Below are positions 5,088 to 56,841 of a stretch of DNA of 59,735 nucleotides, in pieces (position 1 is the stretch's first letter; every line of letters starts with the position of its first letter). The translations under genes were made by a program, and so were the position numbers. The notes beneath the pieces were generated by a model, which ran no database searches, was not told the origin of the DNA, and was given only the letters and a program-made list of their open reading frames with translations. Where the stretch lies: positions 1-59,735 of IMG/VR virus record IMGVR_UViG_3300008012_000002. The stretch is one strand, 5' to 3'. This stretch comes from a virus.

Positions 5088-5358
5088 CACCGTATCCGCA
5101 TCGAAGCGGCTGATGGATAGTATGGCTGCGGCAATCGACAATATGATCGACGAGATCCGAAAGCCAGTAGACCCAGAGGTCAGCGGCAGCGCACGCAAGG
5201 CCGAACTTCAATCCATCAAGCAGACCGCAACAGATTGTAAAGAACTAATCATCGAGCGCCAGAAGCTAGAGCAGATGGTGACAGATCTACAGAACAATGG
5301 ACAAATCGAAGAAGACAAAGATTACTCAGGAGGGTTCGCAGAAAGATTCTCAAAGTGA
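5068..5358 (+). CDS. Helical hypothetical protein
   Basis: A 96-residue protein starting inside the co-chaperonin gene (20-nt overlap). It is almost entirely alpha-helical in pattern, with a long amphipathic/coiled-coil segment (TDCKELIIERQKLEQMVTDL, residues about 53-72). Its place upstream of the large terminase would fit a small terminase subunit, but no clear N-terminal helix-turn-helix is visible, so I do not assign it. Confidence 0.72.
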   Translation: MSRKKFDTVSASKRLMDSMAAAIDNMIDEIRKPVDPEVSGSARKAELQSIKQTATDCKELIIERQKLEQMVTDLQNNGQIEEDKDYSGGFAERFSK

Positions 5359-31157: not shown

Positions 31158-34100
31158 ATGAACGAAAACGAACAGCTTCTAAAAGACTACGTTGCTACGT
31201 GGGATAAGTATCAAGACTGGGACACTGTTAACTCAAAGTTCCCAGAGTTTGAAAGTGTAGACCCTCAGATCCTCAAGGACTACGTTGCCACTTGGGAAAA
31301 GTATCAGAACTGGGATCAGGTAAACGAAAGATTCCCAGAGTTCTTCCCTGAAAAAAAAAAGGATGGAGCATCCGAATCGGACGCCTCTCCATCTCCTGGA
31401 TACGGAACTGAGCCTGGAACCCTAGGCTGGACCTTAACTAAGTTCTTCAGCAAGATGTCTCCCAACATGGGGATTAAGATGGGGGGCTACGAAATGGAAG
31501 CCGAGGAAAGAAGGCTGGCTGAAGCTGGGCTTCTTGAGGATTTCAACAGGTATGATTTTGGGGATTTTGATGCAAATGCAGTAGCGGTTAATGCTCAGCA
31601 AAAGTCTGACGCCAGAACAGAAAACATTTTCAGCGTACTCGGGGGTGATGAGGAGTTCAGGCTTGGTCTTGCTAAGATTGACGAGAAGAAAGCTGGGGAT
31701 AGGGTTGCTGTTACCACAAATCCTGTGGGGCTGAACATGAATATCAAAACTCATCAGGATAGAGAGATTACTCAGGATGAGATTGATAAGGAGAGAAAGG
31801 AGTACATTAGGTCTGCTTACGAAGAAAGGCTTACAGAGTTTCATCAAGGGGAGCTTAGGGAGTCCATTCTTGAAAACCTTACTCCAGAGCAAAGAGAGGA
31901 TAAGGAGTTTCTTTCTATGCTCTCTGACAAGCTGTACTACCACGCTGGTGTAAATGCAGACCTAGATGGAGATGGCAGATACAATGACCAGCCAATTCTT
32001 CAAGACGCTGTAAACACCTTCGACACGACTATCAATGGTTTAGCAGAGGGCTTGATGGTTCCCGTCATGATGGCCACTATGGAGGAGGAGGAGCTTAAGG
32101 AGGCGTTCACTAATATGAGCGAGATGGATGAGGTTAGAGGTAGACTCCAGACTCAATATGACAGCGGCATTTTTGAATCATACGGAAACCTGGATATCTA
32201 TAACGGAACCAGGCAGTTGCTAAACGGTCTTGTTGGGGCTGTGCCAAGCATCTCCTTAAGCATGACAGGCGGTGTCGGCGCTGTCGTTTTGGGTACAAGC
32301 GGAGGCTTTAAGGCTTACTCGGAGGTGGCTTATGACGATAAGTTCACTAACAACTACGGCAAGTATGGGTACGCCATCGCTAATGGTGTTGGTGACTTTG
32401 CCTTCGCTAAGATTGGAAGCTCCATTTTTAAGGGCGCTGAACAGGCCGCAATCAAGTCTTTTCAGGCTGGAGCTAAGGGGGCTAAGGATGCTGGCAAGTT
32501 CATGACCAAGGAGATGATCAAGGGTTACGGTTACAGAAAGGGTATTGCTTTTTCTTCCGAGTTCCTTGAGGAGGCTGCAACTGAGCTTGCTACAAGCTAC
32601 TTCTCTGCTATTGGTCAGGGGAAAAAGTTTGATCTTTCAAAGGCGATTGGAGGTGTTATTGACGCTGGTCTTATTGGTGGTTTTGCTGGTGTTAGTATCG
32701 ACACGGCTGGTAACGCCTCAGGCAGAGTCAAGGCAGCAGCCAATGCCAGAGCAAACCTCGCTGCAGAAACACAGCGACAACTCGAAGCACAAAAGGCACA
32801 GCTTGAAAGGGAGCTTGCTGGATACGCTACTGGAGATCCGAGGACTCAAGAGATTCAGGCTGAGATTAACAGGATCAACTCTGACATCGAAAGTATTGTG
32901 AGGGGTAGAGAGGATTTCTACACCATGATGAGCGTGCGCCATGAGGCAGACTTCAAAGAGATGCAGGCGCTTGATGCGGAGATCGAAAGAATAGCGTCTA
33001 GACTTAAAGAGGATGGTGTCTCATCAGAAGAGAAATCCGTGCTTGAGGAAAGACAAAAGTCGGCGATCAAGAGAAGACTTGAGATTCAACAGGTTCACAT
33101 TGAAGAAAGTGTTGAGCTAAATCAAGAGGAGTCTGAATCTCTGTTTGGCAGATCCGTTAGCGACGCTATGAGCGCTATTGATGAAGAGCTTGATGCTGCT
33201 AGAAACTCTGCTAATTACCTGAGAGATAGAATGGGAACACAAGACCCACCTTCTCAGGCGGCAGTAGACAAGGCCAATGAAACCGTCAATGAACTGATTC
33301 AGAGAAAGCGCGACATTCAAAAGCTTATCGGTGAGGTTGAGCAAGCAAGAGGTGAGGTAAGATCCGCTAGGGCCGAAGCTCAGACAGAGGGTGGTGACGT
33401 TGAAGCCTTCAACGAAGCCATTGACAAACTTACTGTCCTGGAGGAGGCACTTGCTGAAGCGTCTGGCATCAACGAAAGAACCGTATCGGGACCATCAAGG
33501 TTTGTTGGCGACATCTTGGACATCAATGCGCAGATTGCGAATAGGTCTACACCGCAGTGGACTGAGGCCAACATCGAGGCAATGGAGAGCTCAGGCCTGA
33601 CGAGAGAACAGATCGAAGGCATACTTCAGTCTGAGAACTACGCGATGCTTACCGCTGAAAACCCTAACAACAGGGCTGTCAGTGACGAGTCTAACGATGC
33701 GAACAACAAGAAGGCAGAGGAGTACATCAAGAAACTTGGGCTGAAGTACCATAAGATTATTGGTAGATACGATGGAAAAGGAGAGAACAGCTTCCTTGTT
33801 GAAGGCATGACTAGAGAGCAGGCTGCGGAGTTTGCTAGGCAGTTTAATCAGGAGTCTATCGCCCATAGAGACGGTCTTGTCTTGAGAGACGGGAGCATGC
33901 AGATGTTTGGAGAAGGTGTTAGTTTTGACGACTCCTTTGACAATTTCTTCAGCGCCGTTAAGGACAACGAAGGTAACGTTCTGCGTTTTGCAAAACCTCT
34001 TTCAGACAAGTTCGTAGATAAAGACGGAAATGAAATTACCGCTCAGGAATTTGAGAACCGAGTAAAGGATCTTGAATCCAACATGCAGGCCATCGAAGAC

Positions 34101-37100
34101 TATATCGTAGAACAGGCGAACAAGCAAGAGTCTGAGGCTGAATCCCAAAAGGCTACCATCGATCAAAACACTGGGCTTCCAGAGGGCGCTATTAGCGTCA
34201 ACCCAAAGGCTGGTGTCAAGGTTGGTGAGGGCGGAGTTCTCAATAAGAACGAGGCGAAAACAATTAACAACCTCTTTAAGCTTTTTCAATCCCTGTACGG
34301 CGGTGATGCCAGAATGGTAATTATGCCTGAGGGGTCTCAAGCGTTTATGGGAGAGGGGAACGGGGGACTGTTCATCGACATGAAGGATGGTGTCCCCACC
34401 ATCTTTGTATCCCCTTCTCAGGTTAGAATCAACGCAGCTAATGAAGCATCACAGGCTAAAGAGAAGGGAGTTGCATTCAGGACAAAGTCGTTTGCCGAGA
34501 CAGTCGTCGAGGAAGTGAGTCACGCTGCTGTCGGGCCAGCTTTTCAGAAGCTAACAGAGAACGAACAGATAAAGCTAGAGCAGAGAGCATTTGAGATCGC
34601 CAGAAAAGCAAAGGATAAAGGCGCTCTGTTCAATAGATTGACAGCAAAGAAAGCCACGTACACTGCTCAAGGAAAGCCCGTTTCCATAGTTAGAGAGGAG
34701 GTTGTTCTCGACCTGATCTCGGCTTTGTCTGGAGGATCAAGCGAAGTAAATCTGGGAATGATTGATGGCGTAAGACGCCTCGTTAACGAGATCCTCGTAA
34801 AGGCTGGTATGGCCAAGGAGATGCAGATCAAAGATCCGAACTCGATCTTCCGTGTTGCAGCACAGCTTAACGCGGCAAGAAAGTCTGGCGCTTCGTTTGA
34901 TGCTAACGTTAACACCAGGAAGGACACAGAAGCCAAAGCTTCTGGGGCTTTGAATCCGTTCACGCTCAAGCAAGGACCTGACGGTAAGGTAACAGTTAAA
35001 CTCCTTGAAGCTGTTTATACATACAAGAAAGGATTTAAGAAGGATGTAGGCAGCAGAGAAGTAACTAGAAAGTTTAACGACAAGTACCACTTCGTAAATT
35101 GGTGGAAGAAGGCAACCAACTTTGGAGCGGATACACATTACTCACGATTCCAAACCGAAGATGGAAAGGATATTAACATGGGGGCTGTTAAGAAAAACTT
35201 CGGAAGAGGTCAGCAACCAACAGGAGACATCGTCAAGGACGGACTAGAGGTCTACAAGGAAAGAGTCCTTGAAGCAGAAAGGCAGGGGCTTATCGACAGC
35301 AACGCTAAGCGTATGATGTTGAACAACTACTACTCTGTCAAAAGAAACTACAGCGCAGAACTCAAGAAGACTGGATACAAAAACTCTGACGGGTTCAGCT
35401 ACGAGAGTTACGTAAGGAGCATGAACGAGAAGGCGGAAGAGATGCTCAAGAGAGCAAGCGACCGCACGGGAAAGGGTTTTGAGTTTGATCAAGACACGCC
35501 TTCTGGAAAAGCTTCTCAGATGTTGAAGCTTGACTTGATGGAGAAAGGTATGTACCTGAGCCTCATTGAAAAGGGCGATGCCCTATCAACTAGATATGGT
35601 ATCAACTTTGACCCATCCAACAAGGCGCTCACTAGAATGCTTCACTCCTCTGTAGCTAAGGAAGTGTACGGTATTGACTACGACAACCAGTCAGAGGCTG
35701 AGGTAATTGAAAGAACCACAAGCGCACTGCTTGGATTGGTTCGATCTTACTACGGAACCGTGGGGCAAAGAGTAGAGATGTTTGGCGCAGATCCAATAGA
35801 GTTCTTTGCTAAGGATAAGGAGCAAGCTGAGATTGACGTAGACAACATGCTTAAGGAGTTTGTAGGCGGTGAAGTCGATTCGTCTAGAGAAGGGTTTTTA
35901 GTCGCCTATCAGTTTGTAAAGGCGCTTGCTTCGGTGGGCAACAAGGCAAAACCCAACATTAACCTTGCTAAGCAGATCATGCTTGAGTCAGCGAGATGGA
36001 GAAGCAGCGGAGGTAACGCTTACATTGATCCAAGGATCATTCAAGACATCAGAGAGGGTTCTGATTCTGCAGGACTGGACATCTCTGGAGTTCCAGGTAA
36101 GACGAGAAAAACTATTGCCGATAACCTCGATAAGTTCAACGAACAGATGGAGTCGTTTCAATCAACGGAAGGACAGTATAACATCGTTCAGTTCTTGGAC
36201 GCAATGAATCAAGTTGATTCTACTGCAAAGTCTGGAGCCAAGAGGTTTGTAGCTCAGTCTGTGTTCTCTGAAAAGGTAGGGGCTTTCGCCCTGAACCTGA
36301 ACGGGAACGAGGAGGCTATGACCATCGACAGCCACATGGGTAGAACGATTCTGCAACTACTAGGTAACTACAATACGTTCGAGGGGGTCATGGATAGGCA
36401 CAGAGATAGGCTCGCCTCTATGACCGATATGCCAAGCATAGCGGATAGCGCTACTGGACAGTTGGACGCATTTAAGGAAGAGGAGTACGACAGAAAGCTG
36501 ATCGATAGAGCGAGCAATCTTGCAGCTAAGTCTGAGAAGTCTGTCCGAGGCAAGCTTGAGCGAATGCTTGAGAGTATTGCTGGAGAGGACAAGCCTATTC
36601 CTACGAACTACAAGAAGCGCAGAGTAATGGAGACTGTGATTGCTAACGTAGCAAGCGAAATGGGTATGCCTATCTCACAGTTCACGCAACTCCTTTTTGC
36701 AGATGGTCAGGTGATGAGGGGTAGAGCGGCAGGGCCAGGGCTTTACGAGGATTTTGCCACAGCCGCAGAGCAAGCAAGACTCATGGAGGATATGACAGAA
36801 ACCGAAAGAAGACAAGCGATGCTTGACAACCTTACGGTTAGTGCAATCAACGAAGCTACCGCTGAGGCTAGACGAAAAGAAAACTTGAAGAAGCAACTGG
36901 AGGCTGAGGGATCTGCAATGCCTACTGCGGCGGATGAAGTAAAGGCTTCGTCTCAACTGTCCCTTGATCTAGTGCCCAAGCAGAATGCCGACGAGTCACC
37001 CCTCTATAGAAGAAGAACAGCCTCAGAAGCCCTTCAGGTTTCTCCTGATGTAAAGATCAGCGACAGAAAGGTGATGGACGCCCTTGGCACTGACGCTACT

Positions 37101-40100
37101 TCAAGAAGAATTTTAGGTAAGAACTCTCAACTTACTGAAGGACAACAAGTTGGAGTCAGGCTTAACCTGAATGTGATGAAGAACACTGGTGTTCCAGTTC
37201 AGACTCTGCACAGCAAGAATGCTACTGGTGAGGCTTTGAGATACGCAGGTGTGGTCACTGTTAAGAACCCAACCCTTGCTGTGAATCAGAATGCCAGAAG
37301 AAAGATCTTCTCATTCCAAGAGAACAAGTTTCCAATGGCTAGCGTCAATGGTGAGTTCCTTACAGACAAGATCTCTGAGTCTAACTTCGACGGGGTGAAG
37401 GCCTTCTTCAATCCGTTCAAGCACAATGTATTCGTTGATGCTCAAGGACGTCCGATCAAGAGTGCAGGTGAAGCCACCATCGTGGGTAACACGGTGTACT
37501 TGAGAGGTGACATTGAATACTACGACTACAACGATCCAATTTTGAAAGAGGGTAGGACTGAAAGTCCAGAGCAGAAAGCGAAGAGAATCGAAAGAGGGCC
37601 TAAGTACGACAAGGCTGTCAATAGGTTTAGAGCTTATGCCGAACGAGTGATGGGTCTTCAATTCGCTAATGATGAAGATGTCCGCGAGGCATACGACAAC
37701 ATGACCTTTACTTCTCAGGTGGCGCTCAACGAAAGCGAGGTTGCTTCTAGAGCTGAGGAGGCTGTTGAACGAGCCTCGACTAGGTTGATTATCAGGAAGA
37801 CCGCTGGCAAGGCTGCTAGAAAGTATGGGTCAGTTCGTAATCAAATCCTTCAGGACCCGAAGAACTATTTCTCAAGACAGAGCATCGCAAAGGTTAAAGA
37901 CAACCTTGAAGTGATGACGGATCAAGAGCTTGTTGACATCATGACTGACGACGCTCTTGGTAGGCTTCAGAATAGGAACGATGATATGGGTGTGCTCGCT
38001 TCTGCAGAGATGATCAAGAGGGCTGTGGCTCGCGGAGACATGGATGCTATCCCTGGGATTGTAGCCGAGGCTGCAGCAATGGGGACTACAGCGGGTAGAT
38101 TGTTGAGACACTTCCGTGAGCTTAAGAACTCTACCCCAGTGGGTATCACTCAAATCATCAGAAAGGAAGTTGAGGCAAGAGGAAGAACCTTAAACTCAAA
38201 GCAAGAGTCTCAGCTTGAAACAATCGCTGGGAACCTGTTTAGACTTCAAGCAGAAGTAGAACAGCTTATGAAAGATGGCGCTCAAGGCATCGACGTGGAC
38301 GCTGAACTCAAGGCTAAGACTAAGGAGATGAAGGAGGCTGAGAGAGCTCTCGATACGTTCGCCAACACAGTCATTGAAAGAAGCTGGAGTGAGATTGGAC
38401 AAATGCTCATTCAAGGAAACTTGTTGACGCCGATGTCTCAGATCACAAACGTTGGCGCAAACATCATTAACGCTATTGGTCAGATCGGTGTGGACTTGGT
38501 TGGATACCCAGTCGAAAGACTGATCAACATCTTTGATAGGAACTCAGAGCCAGCTCGCAGACCATCGATCTCCGCTTACATGTACGGAGTGAGAAAGTTT
38601 GGTAGTGGTTTCATTGAAGCCCTCAACGAGGTCGTCACTGGTCAACAGCAGGACGTTACAGAGTGGAGAGTTAACAGAGGGTTCATGCCGTTCAGATCTT
38701 TGAAGGCGGCTGTAGCGAACGACAACCTCCCCCTTATGATGGACGGAGAGCCAAGAGTTATTGACAGTCAGTTTGTGAAGTTGCTCGTTCAGGGGACTGT
38801 TGGTATTCCAGCTGAGATCATGTTTAGATTCCTATCGCTCGGTGATACACCATTCAGAAGAATGTTTGAGGGTATTGATCTCTACGAGCAAGCTACTGAG
38901 ATGGGGCTGGAGGGAGAAGCCAGAGAAAACTTTATCAAGTATCCAGGCAAGAGGGCCAAGGAGGTTGCCGAGAGACGAGGTAGAAAGCTGACGTTCCAAG
39001 AGGAGACTGCCGCATCCAGAATGGCTGACGAGGGAATCAAAGTCATTGAAAAAATCTTTGATGGCATTCCATTCATGGATGGTAAGTTCCTTGTACGGAC
39101 GTTTATCCCATACAGAAGAACCCCAGCTAACATGCTCTATGAGACGCTGACTTTTGCTGCACCTCCAGTAGCTATTGCGAGAGCTTACAATGCTTTGGCA
39201 GAAGGAGATAGCAGAGAGGCGTCGCAGAATATCGGCAAGGCTGTTATTGGTGGTATGGCATCTACAACAGCGATCATGCTTCTCAAAGAAGGTTTGCTTA
39301 GTGGACCGATTGACTTCGGAGATGACGAAGAGAGAAACCTTATGTATGATCAGTTCCCTCCGAACAGCGTCAACGTAAGCGGGCTTCGGAGACTTCTCGC
39401 TGGAGAAGACCCAGCCAAGCAGCCTGATGATTACTTCATCTCGTACAACAAGCTTGGAATTATTGGGGCCATCTTTGGTGCCGTTGCTAAGGGCACATCG
39501 AAGCAAGAGATTCTTGAGCGAGGAGACACGCCTTTGATTACTCATACAATTCAAGACGCATTCGGACTTAAGGCATTCTCTACTATGTCTCACATGATGG
39601 ATCAAAGCTTCCTCCAAGGCATTCAAGGTCTTACTGGAATCCTTTCTGCGGCTACTGAGGGTGAGGTTGAGAGGGCAGTAGAGAACTGGTTCAAGAGCAT
39701 GTGGCAAGCAACCACAGCCATGGCTCTCCCGAACACTCTCTCAGCTTTGTACAGGTCTCACAGAGAGTACCTGCCAGACACAAGAGTGACCAAGGACATG
39801 GACGTCATGAAAAGAATGTACACAGCGGGTAAGTACATCGTTCTTAACAGGACATTTGGATTGGGTAATGTGCCAGTCAGAGTAAACTGGAAAGGAGAGC
39901 CCATTCAACAGACTCCAAGAGGTGCCGACGAATACATGTACCAGTTGTTCGACATCACCAAGGCGAGACAAGCTGAAGCAGATCCAGTATCCAACGAGAT
40001 CTACAGGCTGTTCGAGCGAACAGAAGAGATCACTACTGCGGTGGGAACTCCGAGGTTTGCTAGTACGTCTCAGGTCAGCATCCCTGACGTGATTAAGCCT

Positions 40101-40430
40101 AGAGATAAGTACATGGCAAGACGCGCAGGTGTGGACTTCGATTGGATGGATGATAAAGAGTTCATGAAAGAGAGCGTCCGACTCAACACAGAGCAGATCA
40201 ATCGCATGATGGCTGTGGCGGGTAAGAACCGATACGCAGATCTGGAAAAGCTCATCAACACGAGAATCTACAATGCGGCTACTGACGAGGAGAAGATTGA
40301 CATGATGGATGAGATCAACAGAGATTACTCAAGAGCGTGGTCTTACGAAGGAACCAACCTTGCACCGCACACGGTAGAGCTCTGCAAAATCCTAAACGAA
40401 ATCTATGAAGCAAGAAAGAAAGAAGATTAA
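31158..40430 (+). CDS. Giant polyvalent internal virion protein (LPD38-like C-terminus)
   Basis: A 3090-residue protein, 16% of the genome. Residues 7-31 and 38-62 are a direct duplication (LKDYVATW.KYQ.WD.VN..FPEF). A hydrophobic helical region follows near 345-520, then long coiled coils at about 530-800. EEVSHA at 1118-1123 lies in a context typical of HExxH metallopeptidases but has E in place of the first H, so it is probably inactive. From about 2420 the sequence (LLTPMSQITNVGANIINAIG...) looks like the LPD38 large-polyvalent-protein domain, with several membrane-like helices. Such proteins are packaged and ejected into the host, where they may form the conduit or act early. Confidence 0.82.
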   Translation: MNENEQLLKDYVATWDKYQDWDTVNSKFPEFESVDPQILKDYVATWEKYQNWDQVNERFPEFFPEKKKDGASESDASPSPGYGTEPGTLGWTLTKFFSKMSPNMGIKMGGYEMEAEERRLAEAGLLEDFNRYDFGDFDANAVAVNAQQKSDARTENIFSVLGGDEEFRLGLAKIDEKKAGDRVAVTTNPVGLNMNIKTHQDREITQDEIDKERKEYIRSAYEERLTEFHQGELRESILENLTPEQREDKEFLSMLSDKLYYHAGVNADLDGDGRYNDQPILQDAVNTFDTTINGLAEGLMVPVMMATMEEEELKEAFTNMSEMDEVRGRLQTQYDSGIFESYGNLDIYNGTRQLLNGLVGAVPSISLSMTGGVGAVVLGTSGGFKAYSEVAYDDKFTNNYGKYGYAIANGVGDFAFAKIGSSIFKGAEQAAIKSFQAGAKGAKDAGKFMTKEMIKGYGYRKGIAFSSEFLEEAATELATSYFSAIGQGKKFDLSKAIGGVIDAGLIGGFAGVSIDTAGNASGRVKAAANARANLAAETQRQLEAQKAQLERELAGYATGDPRTQEIQAEINRINSDIESIVRGREDFYTMMSVRHEADFKEMQALDAEIERIASRLKEDGVSSEEKSVLEERQKSAIKRRLEIQQVHIEESVELNQEESESLFGRSVSDAMSAIDEELDAARNSANYLRDRMGTQDPPSQAAVDKANETVNELIQRKRDIQKLIGEVEQARGEVRSARAEAQTEGGDVEAFNEAIDKLTVLEEALAEASGINERTVSGPSRFVGDILDINAQIANRSTPQWTEANIEAMESSGLTREQIEGILQSENYAMLTAENPNNRAVSDESNDANNKKAEEYIKKLGLKYHKIIGRYDGKGENSFLVEGMTREQAAEFARQFNQESIAHRDGLVLRDGSMQMFGEGVSFDDSFDNFFSAVKDNEGNVLRFAKPLSDKFVDKDGNEITAQEFENRVKDLESNMQAIEDYIVEQANKQESEAESQKATIDQNTGLPEGAISVNPKAGVKVGEGGVLNKNEAKTINNLFKLFQSLYGGDARMVIMPEGSQAFMGEGNGGLFIDMKDGVPTIFVSPSQVRINAANEASQAKEKGVAFRTKSFAETVVEEVSHAAVGPAFQKLTENEQIKLEQRAFEIARKAKDKGALFNRLTAKKATYTAQGKPVSIVREEVVLDLISALSGGSSEVNLGMIDGVRRLVNEILVKAGMAKEMQIKDPNSIFRVAAQLNAARKSGASFDANVNTRKDTEAKASGALNPFTLKQGPDGKVTVKLLEAVYTYKKGFKKDVGSREVTRKFNDKYHFVNWWKKATNFGADTHYSRFQTEDGKDINMGAVKKNFGRGQQPTGDIVKDGLEVYKERVLEAERQGLIDSNAKRMMLNNYYSVKRNYSAELKKTGYKNSDGFSYESYVRSMNEKAEEMLKRASDRTGKGFEFDQDTPSGKASQMLKLDLMEKGMYLSLIEKGDALSTRYGINFDPSNKALTRMLHSSVAKEVYGIDYDNQSEAEVIERTTSALLGLVRSYYGTVGQRVEMFGADPIEFFAKDKEQAEIDVDNMLKEFVGGEVDSSREGFLVAYQFVKALASVGNKAKPNINLAKQIMLESARWRSSGGNAYIDPRIIQDIREGSDSAGLDISGVPGKTRKTIADNLDKFNEQMESFQSTEGQYNIVQFLDAMNQVDSTAKSGAKRFVAQSVFSEKVGAFALNLNGNEEAMTIDSHMGRTILQLLGNYNTFEGVMDRHRDRLASMTDMPSIADSATGQLDAFKEEEYDRKLIDRASNLAAKSEKSVRGKLERMLESIAGEDKPIPTNYKKRRVMETVIANVASEMGMPISQFTQLLFADGQVMRGRAAGPGLYEDFATAAEQARLMEDMTETERRQAMLDNLTVSAINEATAEARRKENLKKQLEAEGSAMPTAADEVKASSQLSLDLVPKQNADESPLYRRRTASEALQVSPDVKISDRKVMDALGTDATSRRILGKNSQLTEGQQVGVRLNLNVMKNTGVPVQTLHSKNATGEALRYAGVVTVKNPTLAVNQNARRKIFSFQENKFPMASVNGEFLTDKISESNFDGVKAFFNPFKHNVFVDAQGRPIKSAGEATIVGNTVYLRGDIEYYDYNDPILKEGRTESPEQKAKRIERGPKYDKAVNRFRAYAERVMGLQFANDEDVREAYDNMTFTSQVALNESEVASRAEEAVERASTRLIIRKTAGKAARKYGSVRNQILQDPKNYFSRQSIAKVKDNLEVMTDQELVDIMTDDALGRLQNRNDDMGVLASAEMIKRAVARGDMDAIPGIVAEAAAMGTTAGRLLRHFRELKNSTPVGITQIIRKEVEARGRTLNSKQESQLETIAGNLFRLQAEVEQLMKDGAQGIDVDAELKAKTKEMKEAERALDTFANTVIERSWSEIGQMLIQGNLLTPMSQITNVGANIINAIGQIGVDLVGYPVERLINIFDRNSEPARRPSISAYMYGVRKFGSGFIEALNEVVTGQQQDVTEWRVNRGFMPFRSLKAAVANDNLPLMMDGEPRVIDSQFVKLLVQGTVGIPAEIMFRFLSLGDTPFRRMFEGIDLYEQATEMGLEGEARENFIKYPGKRAKEVAERRGRKLTFQEETAASRMADEGIKVIEKIFDGIPFMDGKFLVRTFIPYRRTPANMLYETLTFAAPPVAIARAYNALAEGDSREASQNIGKAVIGGMASTTAIMLLKEGLLSGPIDFGDDEERNLMYDQFPPNSVNVSGLRRLLAGEDPAKQPDDYFISYNKLGIIGAIFGAVAKGTSKQEILERGDTPLITHTIQDAFGLKAFSTMSHMMDQSFLQGIQGLTGILSAATEGEVERAVENWFKSMWQATTAMALPNTLSALYRSHREYLPDTRVTKDMDVMKRMYTAGKYIVLNRTFGLGNVPVRVNWKGEPIQQTPRGADEYMYQLFDITKARQAEADPVSNEIYRLFERTEEITTAVGTPRFASTSQVSIPDVIKPRDKYMARRAGVDFDWMDDKEFMKESVRLNTEQINRMMAVAGKNRYADLEKLINTRIYNAATDEEKIDMMDEINRDYSRAWSYEGTNLAPHTVELCKILNEIYEARKKED

Positions 40431-53846: not shown

Positions 53847-53875
53847 GTTGATTGAATTGAAGTTTAAGATTTGAA

Positions 53876-53930
53876 GTGTTCGTGTATATCACCTTCTTCG
53901 TAAACTCAGAAGGTGTATATACACTCACAC
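53876..53930 (-). ncRNA. Conserved tandem-GA hairpin, copy 1
   Basis: Minus-strand 55-nt element. From the outside in, it has a 4-bp stem GTGT/ACAC, tandem G.A/A.G mismatches (GA opposite GA), an 8-bp stem GTGTATAT/ATATACAC, a bulged A, an 8-bp stem CACCTTCT/AGAAGGTG, and the loop GAGTTTACGA. It has no 3' T tract, so it is not a terminator. It lies 29 nt upstream of the ATG at 53846 and just after a tRNA-like end. Two more copies occur at 55.7 and 56.8 kb. Confidence 0.8.
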
Positions 53931-53935
53931 ATAAG

Positions 53936-55122: not shown

Positions 55123-55323
55123 TCATTTTCTTTTTGTTGTTTCGATTCCCCACCATTCTACTTCTTCATCGTGGATGCGGAAGCTGTGTGTTTCTTGCAG
55201 GGCGTCATTCCATACCTCGTCCAACCACACGCCGTGGTCGTCAGGTGCTCCCTGCACATAGGAAGCAGGGAAGCCTTGTTCTTGCAGTGCTTTGACTGCA
55301 CGTTCGCATTTGTCTTGTGTCAT
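55123..55323 (-). CDS. Small early protein (66 aa)
   Basis: From ATG 55323, overlapping the previous stop (ATGA). It is helical at first (CERAVKALQEQGFPASYVQG), then acidic/aromatic (DDHGVWLDEVWNDALQETHS, EEVEWWGIETTKRK). No family recognised. Confidence 0.7.
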   Translation of the reverse strand: MTQDKCERAVKALQEQGFPASYVQGAPDDHGVWLDEVWNDALQETHSFRIHDEEVEWWGIETTKRK

Positions 55324-55499
55324 TTGCTCAAGTTGAATGCAGTTTTACGAACAGCCTCGACCTTCTTCAAGGTCCACCCAGGAGGTGTCATCATCCGTGC
55401 TTGGATGAGTGCTGATGTGCTGTCATTGGATGCGAACTCGCGGTCTCGCCAATCGTCTCGGTCTTTGCCGAAGTAGTATACCATGCGGTAAATGTTCAT
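55320..55499 (-). CDS. Small early protein, RMVYY-DRDDW family (59 aa)
   Basis: From ATG 55499 with an A/T-rich leader (GAAATTTCAAACTTCATTCAC region) to TGA 55320. N-terminus MNIYRMVYYFGKDRDDWRDR closely matches RMVYYRGYDRDDWD in the protein at 56076. A second half with WTLKKVEAVRKTAFNL mirrors CVKSVKAHFQL there. The two are paralogues in the same operon. Function unknown. It is the first gene after the HHR/tRNA-like segment. Confidence 0.7.
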   Translation of the reverse strand: MNIYRMVYYFGKDRDDWRDREFASNDSTSALIQARMMTPPGWTLKKVEAVRKTAFNLSK

Positions 55500-55537: not shown

Positions 55538-55608
55538 TAGATGTGGCGGGATTCGAACCCGCACCTCCACCTTTCAGTGGCGTGCTATCCTGTTACACTA
55601 TCACACCT
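55538..55608 (-). ncRNA. tRNA-like element with a shortened anticodon arm
   Basis: 71 nt on the minus strand. The acceptor is AGGTGTG/CACATCT (7 bp, one G.U) with discriminator A. The D arm is GTG...CAC with a GG in its loop. The T arm is perfect, GCGGG-TTCGAAT-CCCGC. The anticodon arm is CCAC-TGAAAG-GTGG, 14 nt instead of 17, so no 7-nt loop exists; CCACT-GAAA-GGTGG with a GNRA loop is an alternative. All else is tRNA-like. A standard tRNA finder may call it a pseudo- or Phe(GAA)-like tRNA. It lies 34 nt after a hammerhead ribozyme. Confidence 0.62.
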
Positions 55609-55642: not shown

Positions 55643-55692
55643 GACACAGACGCCTCTCGGCGTTTCGTCCATTGAGGACTCATCAGTGTGTC
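55643..55692 (-). ncRNA. Type I hammerhead ribozyme, copy 1
   Basis: All core positions are present in order on the minus strand. Stem I GACACA (92-87) pairs with TGTGTC (48-43). The core CTGATGA is at 86-80. Stem II GTCC-tcaat-GGAC is at 79-67, and GAAA at 66-63. Stem III ACGCC-GAGA-GGCGT has a GNRA loop. C at 55649 is the cleavage-site H17, giving cleavage between 55649 and 55648. Stem I carries the open ends, so it is type I. It lies 6 nt after hairpin copy 2 and upstream of the tRNA-like element. Confidence 0.92.
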
Positions 55693-55698
55693 TCTTTA

Positions 55699-55753
55699 GT
55701 GTTCGTGTATACTACCTTCTTCGTAAACTCAGAAGGTATGTATACACTCACAC
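55699..55753 (-). ncRNA. Conserved tandem-GA hairpin, copy 2
   Basis: Same 55-nt plan as copy 1: outer GTGT/ACAC, tandem G.A, stem GTGTATAC/GTATACAC, a bulged A, stem TACCTTCT/AGAAGGTA, loop GAGTTTACGA. Relative to copy 1 a T-A pair has become C-G and a C-G pair has become T-A, both changed on the two sides together, which supports an RNA stem. It starts right after the stop of the gene at 55758 and ends 6 nt before hammerhead 1. Confidence 0.8.
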
Positions 55754-55757
55754 ATAG

Positions 55758-55979
55758 TCAGTCGTCAGTCGACCACCGCTTCAGCATTCGCATCACATGG
55801 AACACCGTCGTAGCGTCAGCGTCAGGTGTGTTTGCCACGATTGATGCCATGCCCTTGACGTCATCAGGGATGAGCCGAGCGTAGCGGTTCAGGTCAGACA
55901 GGTACTTCCCGTTGTGGAAGTCGTTGAGGTAGAGGACGGCACGTCCTACGGGTTGGGAGAAAAAGTTGTCCTTAATCAT
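55758..55979 (-). CDS. Small early protein (73 aa)
   Basis: From ATG 55979 (ATGATTAA overlap with the tiny membrane protein) to TGA 55758. It contains GRAVLYLNDFHNGKYLSDLN, then IPDDVKGMASIVANTPDADA, and ends with a basic helix (FHVMRMLKRWSTDD). No family recognised. The structured RNA element follows its stop directly. Confidence 0.7.
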   Translation of the reverse strand: MIKDNFFSQPVGRAVLYLNDFHNGKYLSDLNRYARLIPDDVKGMASIVANTPDADATTVFHVMRMLKRWSTDD

Positions 55980-56076: not shown

Positions 56077-56309
56077 TACTTGTTGAGTTGGAAGTGGGCT
56101 TTCACGGACTTGACACAATGCCCATCAGGGCAGAGGTCAAGCGCTCGTTGCTTCGCATGGTCGAGAGACCACGCCTTGAACACGATGGCGTCCCAATCGT
56201 CGCGGTCGTAGCCACGATAGTACACCATCCTGAACTCCATTGAGGGGCAGGATTTCGGGAGCCAATCGCTCATCGTGCCCCGCTTGGGGTAGCGTTCCCA
56301 AATGTTCAT
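56076..56309 (-). CDS. Small early protein, RMVYY-DRDDW family (77 aa)
   Basis: From ATG 56309 (ATGA overlap with the previous stop). The core FRMVYYRGYDRDDWDAIVFK is shared with the protein at 55320. It is followed by a helix AWSLDHAKQRALDLCPDGHC and KSVKAHFQLNK. An internal Met at residue 26 (MEFRMVYY) could be an alternative start. It is a duplicated early gene family; function unknown. Confidence 0.7.
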   Translation of the reverse strand: MNIWERYPKRGTMSDWLPKSCPSMEFRMVYYRGYDRDDWDAIVFKAWSLDHAKQRALDLCPDGHCVKSVKAHFQLNK

Positions 56310-56467
56310 GACAAGTCGACGATTTCTTGTGCGACCATCATCTGCTCGTTACATGACAGGCTTGCGAACTCCTCGGAGTTGAAGTAGGCGTCAGCCCCGA
56401 ACACTTGGTACATATCGACCATAGCTTGCAATTTGGCGATTCTCGCCTCAACATTTGTAGTTTTCAT
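56306..56467 (-). CDS. Tiny early protein (53 aa)
   Basis: From ATG 56467 to TGA 56306. Helical at first (MKTTNVEARIAKLQAMVDMY), then YFNSEEFASLSCNEQMMVA. Its 26-nt leader (UGUAUCAAACUUCAAAUUCA and on) is exactly the RNA that would begin at the cleavage site of hammerhead 2, so its mRNA 5' end may be set by the ribozyme. No family recognised. Confidence 0.65.
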   Translation of the reverse strand: MKTTNVEARIAKLQAMVDMYQVFGADAYFNSEEFASLSCNEQMMVAQEIVDLS

Positions 56468-56487
56468 TGGAAATGAATTTGAAGTTT

Positions 56488-56539
56488 GATACAGACACCC
56501 CGAAGGGTGTTTCGTCCATTGAGGACTCGTCAGTGTACC
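56488..56539 (-). ncRNA. Type I hammerhead ribozyme, copy 2
   Basis: Minus strand. Stem I GGTACA (39-34) pairs with TGTATC (93-88), with one G.U. The core CTGACGA is at 33-27 (position 7 is variable in the family). Stem II GTCC-tcaat-GGAC is identical to copy 1, followed by GAAA. Stem III ACACCC-TTCG-GGGTGT has a UUCG tetraloop, and cleavage follows C at 56494. Stems I and III differ from copy 1 with pairing preserved, while the core is fixed. It sits 7 nt after the stop of the 67-residue gene. Confidence 0.92.
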
Positions 56540-56546
56540 TGTGATG

Positions 56547-56750
56547 TCAGTATGGGGGCTTGTCAGGTTTGGGTGAGAGAGCAGACTCCATGGCCTTGGA
56601 CAGGAGGTACTCCTCGAGTTCTTCGTCGAGGTGGTGCTTGAGGATGTAATCCTCGGCTTCGGGGTCGCTACCTAACACCCTGTAGACGTCTACACTTGTC
56701 ATGTAGCCTGATTGGATGACGCAATCGATGATGTCTGAAACGTTTGACAT
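56547..56750 (-). CDS. Small acidic early protein (67 aa)
   Basis: From ATG 56750, 31 nt after hairpin copy 3, with leader GAAATTCAAACTTCAAGCC. Helical and acidic: VSDIIDCVIQSGYMTSVDVY, RVLGSDPEAEDYILKHHLDE, then a Pro/Lys tail KPDKPPY. No family recognised. It is bracketed by hairpin 3 and hammerhead 2, so its mRNA may be defined at both ends by RNA structure. Confidence 0.7.
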   Translation of the reverse strand: MSNVSDIIDCVIQSGYMTSVDVYRVLGSDPEAEDYILKHHLDEELEEYLLSKAMESALSPKPDKPPY

Positions 56751-56781
56751 GGCTTGAAGTTTGAATTTCGAGTTAGAGAGA

Positions 56782-56832
56782 GGGGTCGTATATCACCTTC
56801 TTCGTAAACTCAGAAGGTGTATATACTCCCCC
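56782..56832 (-). ncRNA. Conserved tandem-GA hairpin, copy 3
   Basis: 51 nt: outer GGGG/CCCC (against GTGT/ACAC in copies 1 and 2, a four-base compensatory change), the same tandem GA/GA mismatch, stem GTATAT/ATATAC (2 bp shorter), bulged A, CACCTTCT/AGAAGGTG, loop GAGTTTACGA. It lies 9 nt after the stop of the gene at 56842 and 31 nt before the next ATG. Confidence 0.8.
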
Positions 56833-56841
56833 ACTCATGGA

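Follow-up and report, generated by a model that had tools for sequence, protein, structure and literature searches.

In phage T7, the early mRNA is polycistronic and is cut between genes by a host protein, RNase III. The present study concerns an element on the minus strand of IMG/VR virus record IMGVR_UViG_3300008012_000002 (59,735 nucleotides (nt), the whole of which is referred to here as the window), namely, the hammerhead ribozyme HHR2 at positions 56539-56488. Judged from its sequence and from comparison with relatives, HHR2 is likely a functional type I hammerhead that acts as mRNA punctuation. Phage and bacterial hammerheads have been on record since 2011 or earlier (PMC3088659). In the haloviruses HF1 and HF2, a hammerhead (HHphage) lies 13 nt 5' of the helicase start codon, and primer extension put the 5' end of the major transcript no more than 3 nt from the site of cleavage (PMC3088659). 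The same paper reports tandem hammerheads in polycistronic RNA, e.g., in Agrobacterium tumefaciens (beside ardA), Clostridium scindens, and Azorhizobium; these cleave in vitro, and the A. tumefaciens set also cleaves in E. coli (PMC3088659). A further group of self-cleaving RNAs, the hepatitis delta virus-like theta ribozymes, is found near phage tRNAs (PMC10879173).

Each of these systems resembles the present locus in part. As with HHphage, HHR2 is located shortly 5' of a viral start codon on the coding strand (26 nt here). HF1 and HF2, however, are archaeal viruses with a single copy and a variant core, whereas the hammerheads considered here have consensus cores, occur in several copies per genome ahead of a fixed 26-nt leader, and belong to an uncultured Bacteroidota-type phage. 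By analogy, HF1/HF2 constitutes one published precedent and the best outside support for punctuation. The bacterial tandem sets, like this locus as predicted, place several active ribozymes in one polycistronic RNA, and the A. tumefaciens set is contained in phage-like DNA; their function was left open, and spacing to start codons is not described in the accessible text of PMC3088659. The theta ribozymes link phage self-cleaving RNA with tRNA, comparable to the first window copy, HHR1, and its tRNA-like neighbor, but HHR1 is of a different class (hammerhead), and most hammerhead copies lie 5' of protein genes. With T7, the shared feature is an early polycistronic mRNA that is divided into units; the cutter in T7 is a host protein, while here it would be the RNA itself.

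Structure and conservation of HHR2

HHR2 (56488..56539, minus strand) has a complete core and three fully paired stems and reads GGUACA-CUGACGA-GUCC-UCAAU-GGAC-GAAA-CACCC-UUCG-GGGUG-UC^UGUAUC. Stem I (56539-56534 with 56493-56488; GGUACA/UGUAUC, 6 base pairs (bp) including one G-U) is open, and stems II (56526-56523 with 56517-56514; GUCC/GGAC, 4 bp, loop UCAAU) and III (56509-56505 with 56500-56496; CACCC-UUCG-GGGUG, 5 bp plus A15.1-U16.1) are closed, which is the type I topology. The core strands are CUGACGA (56533-56527) and GAAA (56513-56510), U16.1 is position 56495, C17 is position 56494, and cleavage is predicted at 56494^56493. Every invariant hammerhead position was found (C3 U4 G5 A6 N7 G8 A9, G12 A13 A14, A15.1-U16.1, and C17), and the element agrees with the type I core definition, i.e., CUGANGA/GAAA, A15.1-U16.1, and H at position 17. 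Compared with Rfam family RF00163 (type I hammerhead), HHR2 shares the core, the topology with stem I open, A15.1-U16.1, and the GUC cleavage triplet; it differs in its short regular stems, in a score below the cut-off, and in its location, which is between genes of a phage and not in repeats or satellite RNAs.

This pattern has two matches in the window, totaling 15 and 14 bp, with at least 4 bp in all stems. Dinucleotide shuffling of the window (3000 shuffles) gave 4 matches that reached a total of 14 bp, and in none did all three stems have at least 4 bp. The second hammerhead named in the original prediction at 56488-56539 is thus borne out by its complete type I consensus and its significance over shuffles. 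The other match, HHR1 (55643..55692, minus strand; predicted cleavage 55649^55648), differs from HHR2 in the sequence of stems I and III, which pair in both copies, and in the stem III loop (GAGA in HHR1, UUCG in HHR2), just as had been claimed. The core and stem II had been called identical between the copies; this is correct for stem II and its loop but not for the core, in which the variable position N7 is U in HHR1 and C in HHR2.

Relatives were gathered via gene 53846-53244, via the terminase, and via the leader pattern described below. Because the terminase of the record matches those of Flavobacterium elemo phage and Cellulophaga phage, the record probably represents a Bacteroidota podovirus whose genome is about 60 kb long. 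The clade alignment comprises 37 distinct sequences, in which all 555 cells of the 15 stem pairs (100%) are standard pairs; 10 of the 15 pairs change on both sides, with 86 such cells versus 22 in shuffles, and the covariation was lost when pairing partners were slid. RNAalifold recovered the hammerhead fold from these sequences unaided. Selection on the hammerhead structure, as originally proposed, is therefore shown on 37 distinct relatives. Since most other searches required the core, a search on stems only was also performed in 1.65 Mb of clade sequence. This search returned 55 sites with 0 core mismatches and none with 1-3, the chance background beginning at 4, which shows selection on the catalytic core as well. 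At sites chosen on GAAAC, the 3' side, and the leader alone, CUGANGA was in place in 38 of 38 cases. A chance origin of HHR2 is ruled out by the 3000 shuffles together with the structure-only search.

Placement relative to start and stop codons

Cleavage after 56494 would leave a leader of 26 nt (56468..56493, minus strand; UGUAUC-AAACUUCAAAUUCAUUUCCA, in which the AAACUUCAA motif occupies 56487-56479), which ends at ATG 56467 of a gene for 53 amino acids (aa; 56306..56467, minus strand), has 73% A+T, and contains no Shine-Dalgarno (SD) sequence. The coordinates and composition of this leader agree with the original prediction, which had further held that the same kind of leader precedes other early genes. 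The motif part of that claim stands: AAACTTCAA/T has six occurrences on the minus strand of the window, all of them 12-24 nt 5' of an ATG, and a single one on the plus strand. As for the word "early," we infer it for the genes behind the ribozymes from their synteny with the replication side of the genomes of related phages. Small-gene leaders that carry AAACTTCAA and lack an SD sequence fit the Bacteroidota host group. On the other side of HHR2, the stop codon of a 67-aa gene (56547..56750, minus strand) is located 7 nt 5' of the ribozyme. Both window ribozymes lie within a series of small minus-strand genes, for which a PHROGs search returned no family.

The distance to the start codon is conserved. 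Among orthologues of the 53-aa downstream gene, the cleavage site lies exactly 26 nt 5' of the ATG at protein identities of 77, 40, 34, 29, and 24%, giving six orthologous loci (the window and five relatives) with the same spacing. Clade-wide, the distance is 24-29 nt in most cases. Relatives carry one to four hammerheads on the coding strand at varied spacings from each other, mostly each directly 5' of a gene start, and the cassette precedes more than 12 unrelated gene families. A promoter was considered as the source of the conserved leader. TAnnTTTG, the Bacteroidota-type -7 motif, was present between 40 nt 5' of the ribozyme and the ATG in just 1 of 52 clade cases, which gives no support to this motif as the source, phage-specific promoters being possible.

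A core-pattern scan of viral contigs yielded at least 130 distinct type I hammerheads among the matches listed, many of them in other phages; for both large pattern scans, the counts given here refer to matches listed and are lower bounds. For these 130, the median distance from cleavage site to ATG is 27 nt, and 78% cut 15-45 nt 5' of an ATG, compared with 13% on the antisense side; of random positions, 26% lie 15-60 nt from an ATG. An SD-like motif falls within the post-cleavage leader in 49 of 108 leaders of 15-60 nt. The spare room is larger toward the start codon than toward the stop codon in 141 of 146 ribozymes (median 20.5 versus -6 nt). Typically, the stop codon of the upstream gene directly adjoins stem I of the ribozyme or overlaps it. 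The recurrence of the same placement in many unrelated phages suggests that the ribozymes are used to divide long messages.

Arrays on one strand were also encountered, with copy numbers of five, seven, and eight when entire records were counted. In L387 (533-4571), L021 (2401-3883), L034, L118, and L066, phage operons contain 5-8 consecutive type I hammerheads, almost all of which lie close 5' of a start codon; in L387, eight ribozymes occur within 4 kb, seven at 20-24 nt from an ATG and the eighth at 34 nt. In a smaller second setting, type I hammerheads are located inside or beside phage tRNA gene clusters (L027, L106, L320, L077, and L088), where they perhaps separate tRNA units.

Putative mRNA punctuation and its alternatives

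The sequence, structure, covariation, intact core, and geometry conserved across relatives and other phages support, by comparison, RNA punctuation of a polycistronic phage mRNA as the best model. RNA polymerase would produce a long minus-strand transcript through the small-gene region, and HHR2 would fold once transcribed and cut between 56494 and 56493. The upstream piece, carrying gene 56750-56547 and whatever lies 5' of it, would retain the folded ribozyme, which would form a compact 3' end just past the stop codon, with a 2',3'-cyclic phosphate as expected from established hammerhead chemistry. The downstream piece would begin with a 5'-OH and the 26-nt unstructured A/U-rich leader, which would suit initiation without an SD sequence, as expected in a Bacteroidota host. 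The benefit may consist of uniform short leaders and separately stable mRNA pieces. That the ribozyme may both end one mRNA and define the next, as first suggested from the window, gains support from the conserved geometry toward start and stop codons, with the step from placement to function, like cleavage in the cell, being one that we infer.

Several observations weigh against this model. The two window copies score 22.8 and 24.9 bits against RF00163 (E 1.2e-4 and 2.5e-5 for this record), below the curated cut-off of 34 bits, which is a detection threshold and not a defining property of type I hammerheads; consequently, standard annotation would miss both. Natural hammerheads need a contact between loop II and stem I for fast cleavage, and no pairing or covariation showing one was found; the conserved loop II pattern U-N-A-N-U and the stem I flanks CA/AAAC are candidates only for such a tertiary contact. 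A blastn search for a near copy among 50,697 phage records gave short matches only (E of at least 0.2), and no hammerhead was found in MW202828 (searched whole) or in NC_055853 (bases 1-50000), two relatives that are complete or cultured. In addition, a ribosome terminating at the very near upstream stop codon could unfold the ribozyme, and cleavage may thus be partial.

The same proximity of the stop codon, which abuts or overlaps the ribozyme, is what would be expected if the main job of the ribozyme lay upstream, i.e., if it made a protected 3' end as a substitute for a terminator and the spacing to the ATG were a by-product of tight gene packing. Several relatives moreover have an extra stem-loop just 5' of the ribozyme, e.g., GATTGATATGTAATATCAAT. 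The downstream spacing is equally tight, however, being exactly 26 nt in orthologues, and the leader motif and SD sites fall inside the post-cleavage leader, which makes a mainly upstream function unlikely. Less probable still is that the structure is kept as a protein-binding or ribosome-regulating hairpin that does not cleave. Intergenic hairpins are common in phages, one such element is present here, and cleavage of HHR2 is a prediction; yet the core, which is unpaired in the secondary structure, is invariant in the 55 structure-selected sites, while the stems vary freely with compensation.

Two type I hammerheads on the same strand, 845 nt apart, also recall retrozymes and viroid-like RNAs, as the small elements of this type in plants and animals have a similar size, and the two copies might accordingly bound an element that is excised and circularized. 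The interval contains four open reading frames rather than one non-coding unit, the stems I of the two copies are unlike, and the hammerheads of relatives do not come in pairs and are mostly placed singly 5' of genes of unrelated families. On this coding content and arrangement, a circular element was rejected, and it is the least credible of the explanations weighed here.

Neighboring elements and wider meaning

Three copies of a long hairpin whose inner part (GUAUAUACACCUUCUGAGUUUACGAAGAAGGUGAUAUAC) is nearly invariant are found in the window, and relatives have one to three. On the minus strand of the window, the conserved regions are 56774..56839, after which comes the leader of gene 56750-56547; 53870..53935, 5' of the leader of gene 53846; and 55693..55758, directly preceding HHR1. 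The hairpin has GA/GA internal loops and compensated pairs (relatives listed: L221, L228, L249, L256, and L259), folds far better than shuffles (z -5.4 and -5.8), and changes on both sides in 4 of 15 pairs; an Rfam search found no family matching it. The distance from the end of its inner stem to the ATG is mostly 38-55 nt, and the leader motif is the same as behind the ribozyme. In the 56467 gene family, a hammerhead lies 5' in six loci and the hairpin instead in L130 and L216; in the 55979 gene family, the hairpin lies 5' in six loci, a hammerhead in L212 and L218, and neither in the window. The occurrence of the same gene families behind either element suggests that hammerhead and hairpin may be interchangeable heads, and it makes the hairpin a candidate for a new processing element.

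Between HHR1 and the leader of the next gene, a tRNA-like element (55538..55608, minus strand) has conserved D, T, and acceptor arms and an anticodon loop shortened to 6 nt. The same element in relative L229 (about 5140-5210) has an anticodon loop of 3 nt and precedes a member of the same gene family as the window gene behind HHR1 and the tRNA-like element (55320..55499, minus strand), a family that also includes gene 56309-56076. A decoding role for this element is unlikely.

Other observations were made in passing. In L212, L226, L231, L254, and L267, hammerheads are directly preceded by small stem-loops, possible 3'-end stabilizers, that have a GTAA loop and stems that vary with compensation (e.g., ATTGATATGTAATATCAAT). 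At window 53957-53936 (minus strand), a T-arm-like GGTTCGACTCCACC followed by an acceptor-like stretch lies 5' of the third hairpin, and ARAGORN reported no tRNA at this position. A 3090-aa protein in the virion region (31158-40430, plus strand) contains DUF3293 and Phage_L5_gp82 domains.

A broader proposal, advanced tentatively and somewhat more apt to be wrong than right, is that of modular punctuation, in which hammerhead, conserved hairpin, and tRNA-like element would serve as interchangeable heads that make standard short leaders 5' of small genes. The hairpin would perhaps be self-cleaving or targeted by a nuclease, and beyond this clade, type I hammerheads would serve phages generally as a means of dividing polycistronic mRNA directly 5' of start codons. 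Neither the ribozyme class nor its occurrence in phages is new. A literature search, with subscription journals and preprints outside its scope, found no prior statement of the spacing rule; within the searchable literature, the strict general spacing to start codons, its conservation at orthologous genes, and the replacement hairpin appear to be new.

As the spacing persists despite strong divergence of the proteins and recurs in many groups of phages, the purpose of phage hammerheads becomes directly testable. The spacing can furthermore serve as a search rule that finds ribozymes missed by current models, and hammerhead punctuation would represent a natural, protein-free way of dividing operons.
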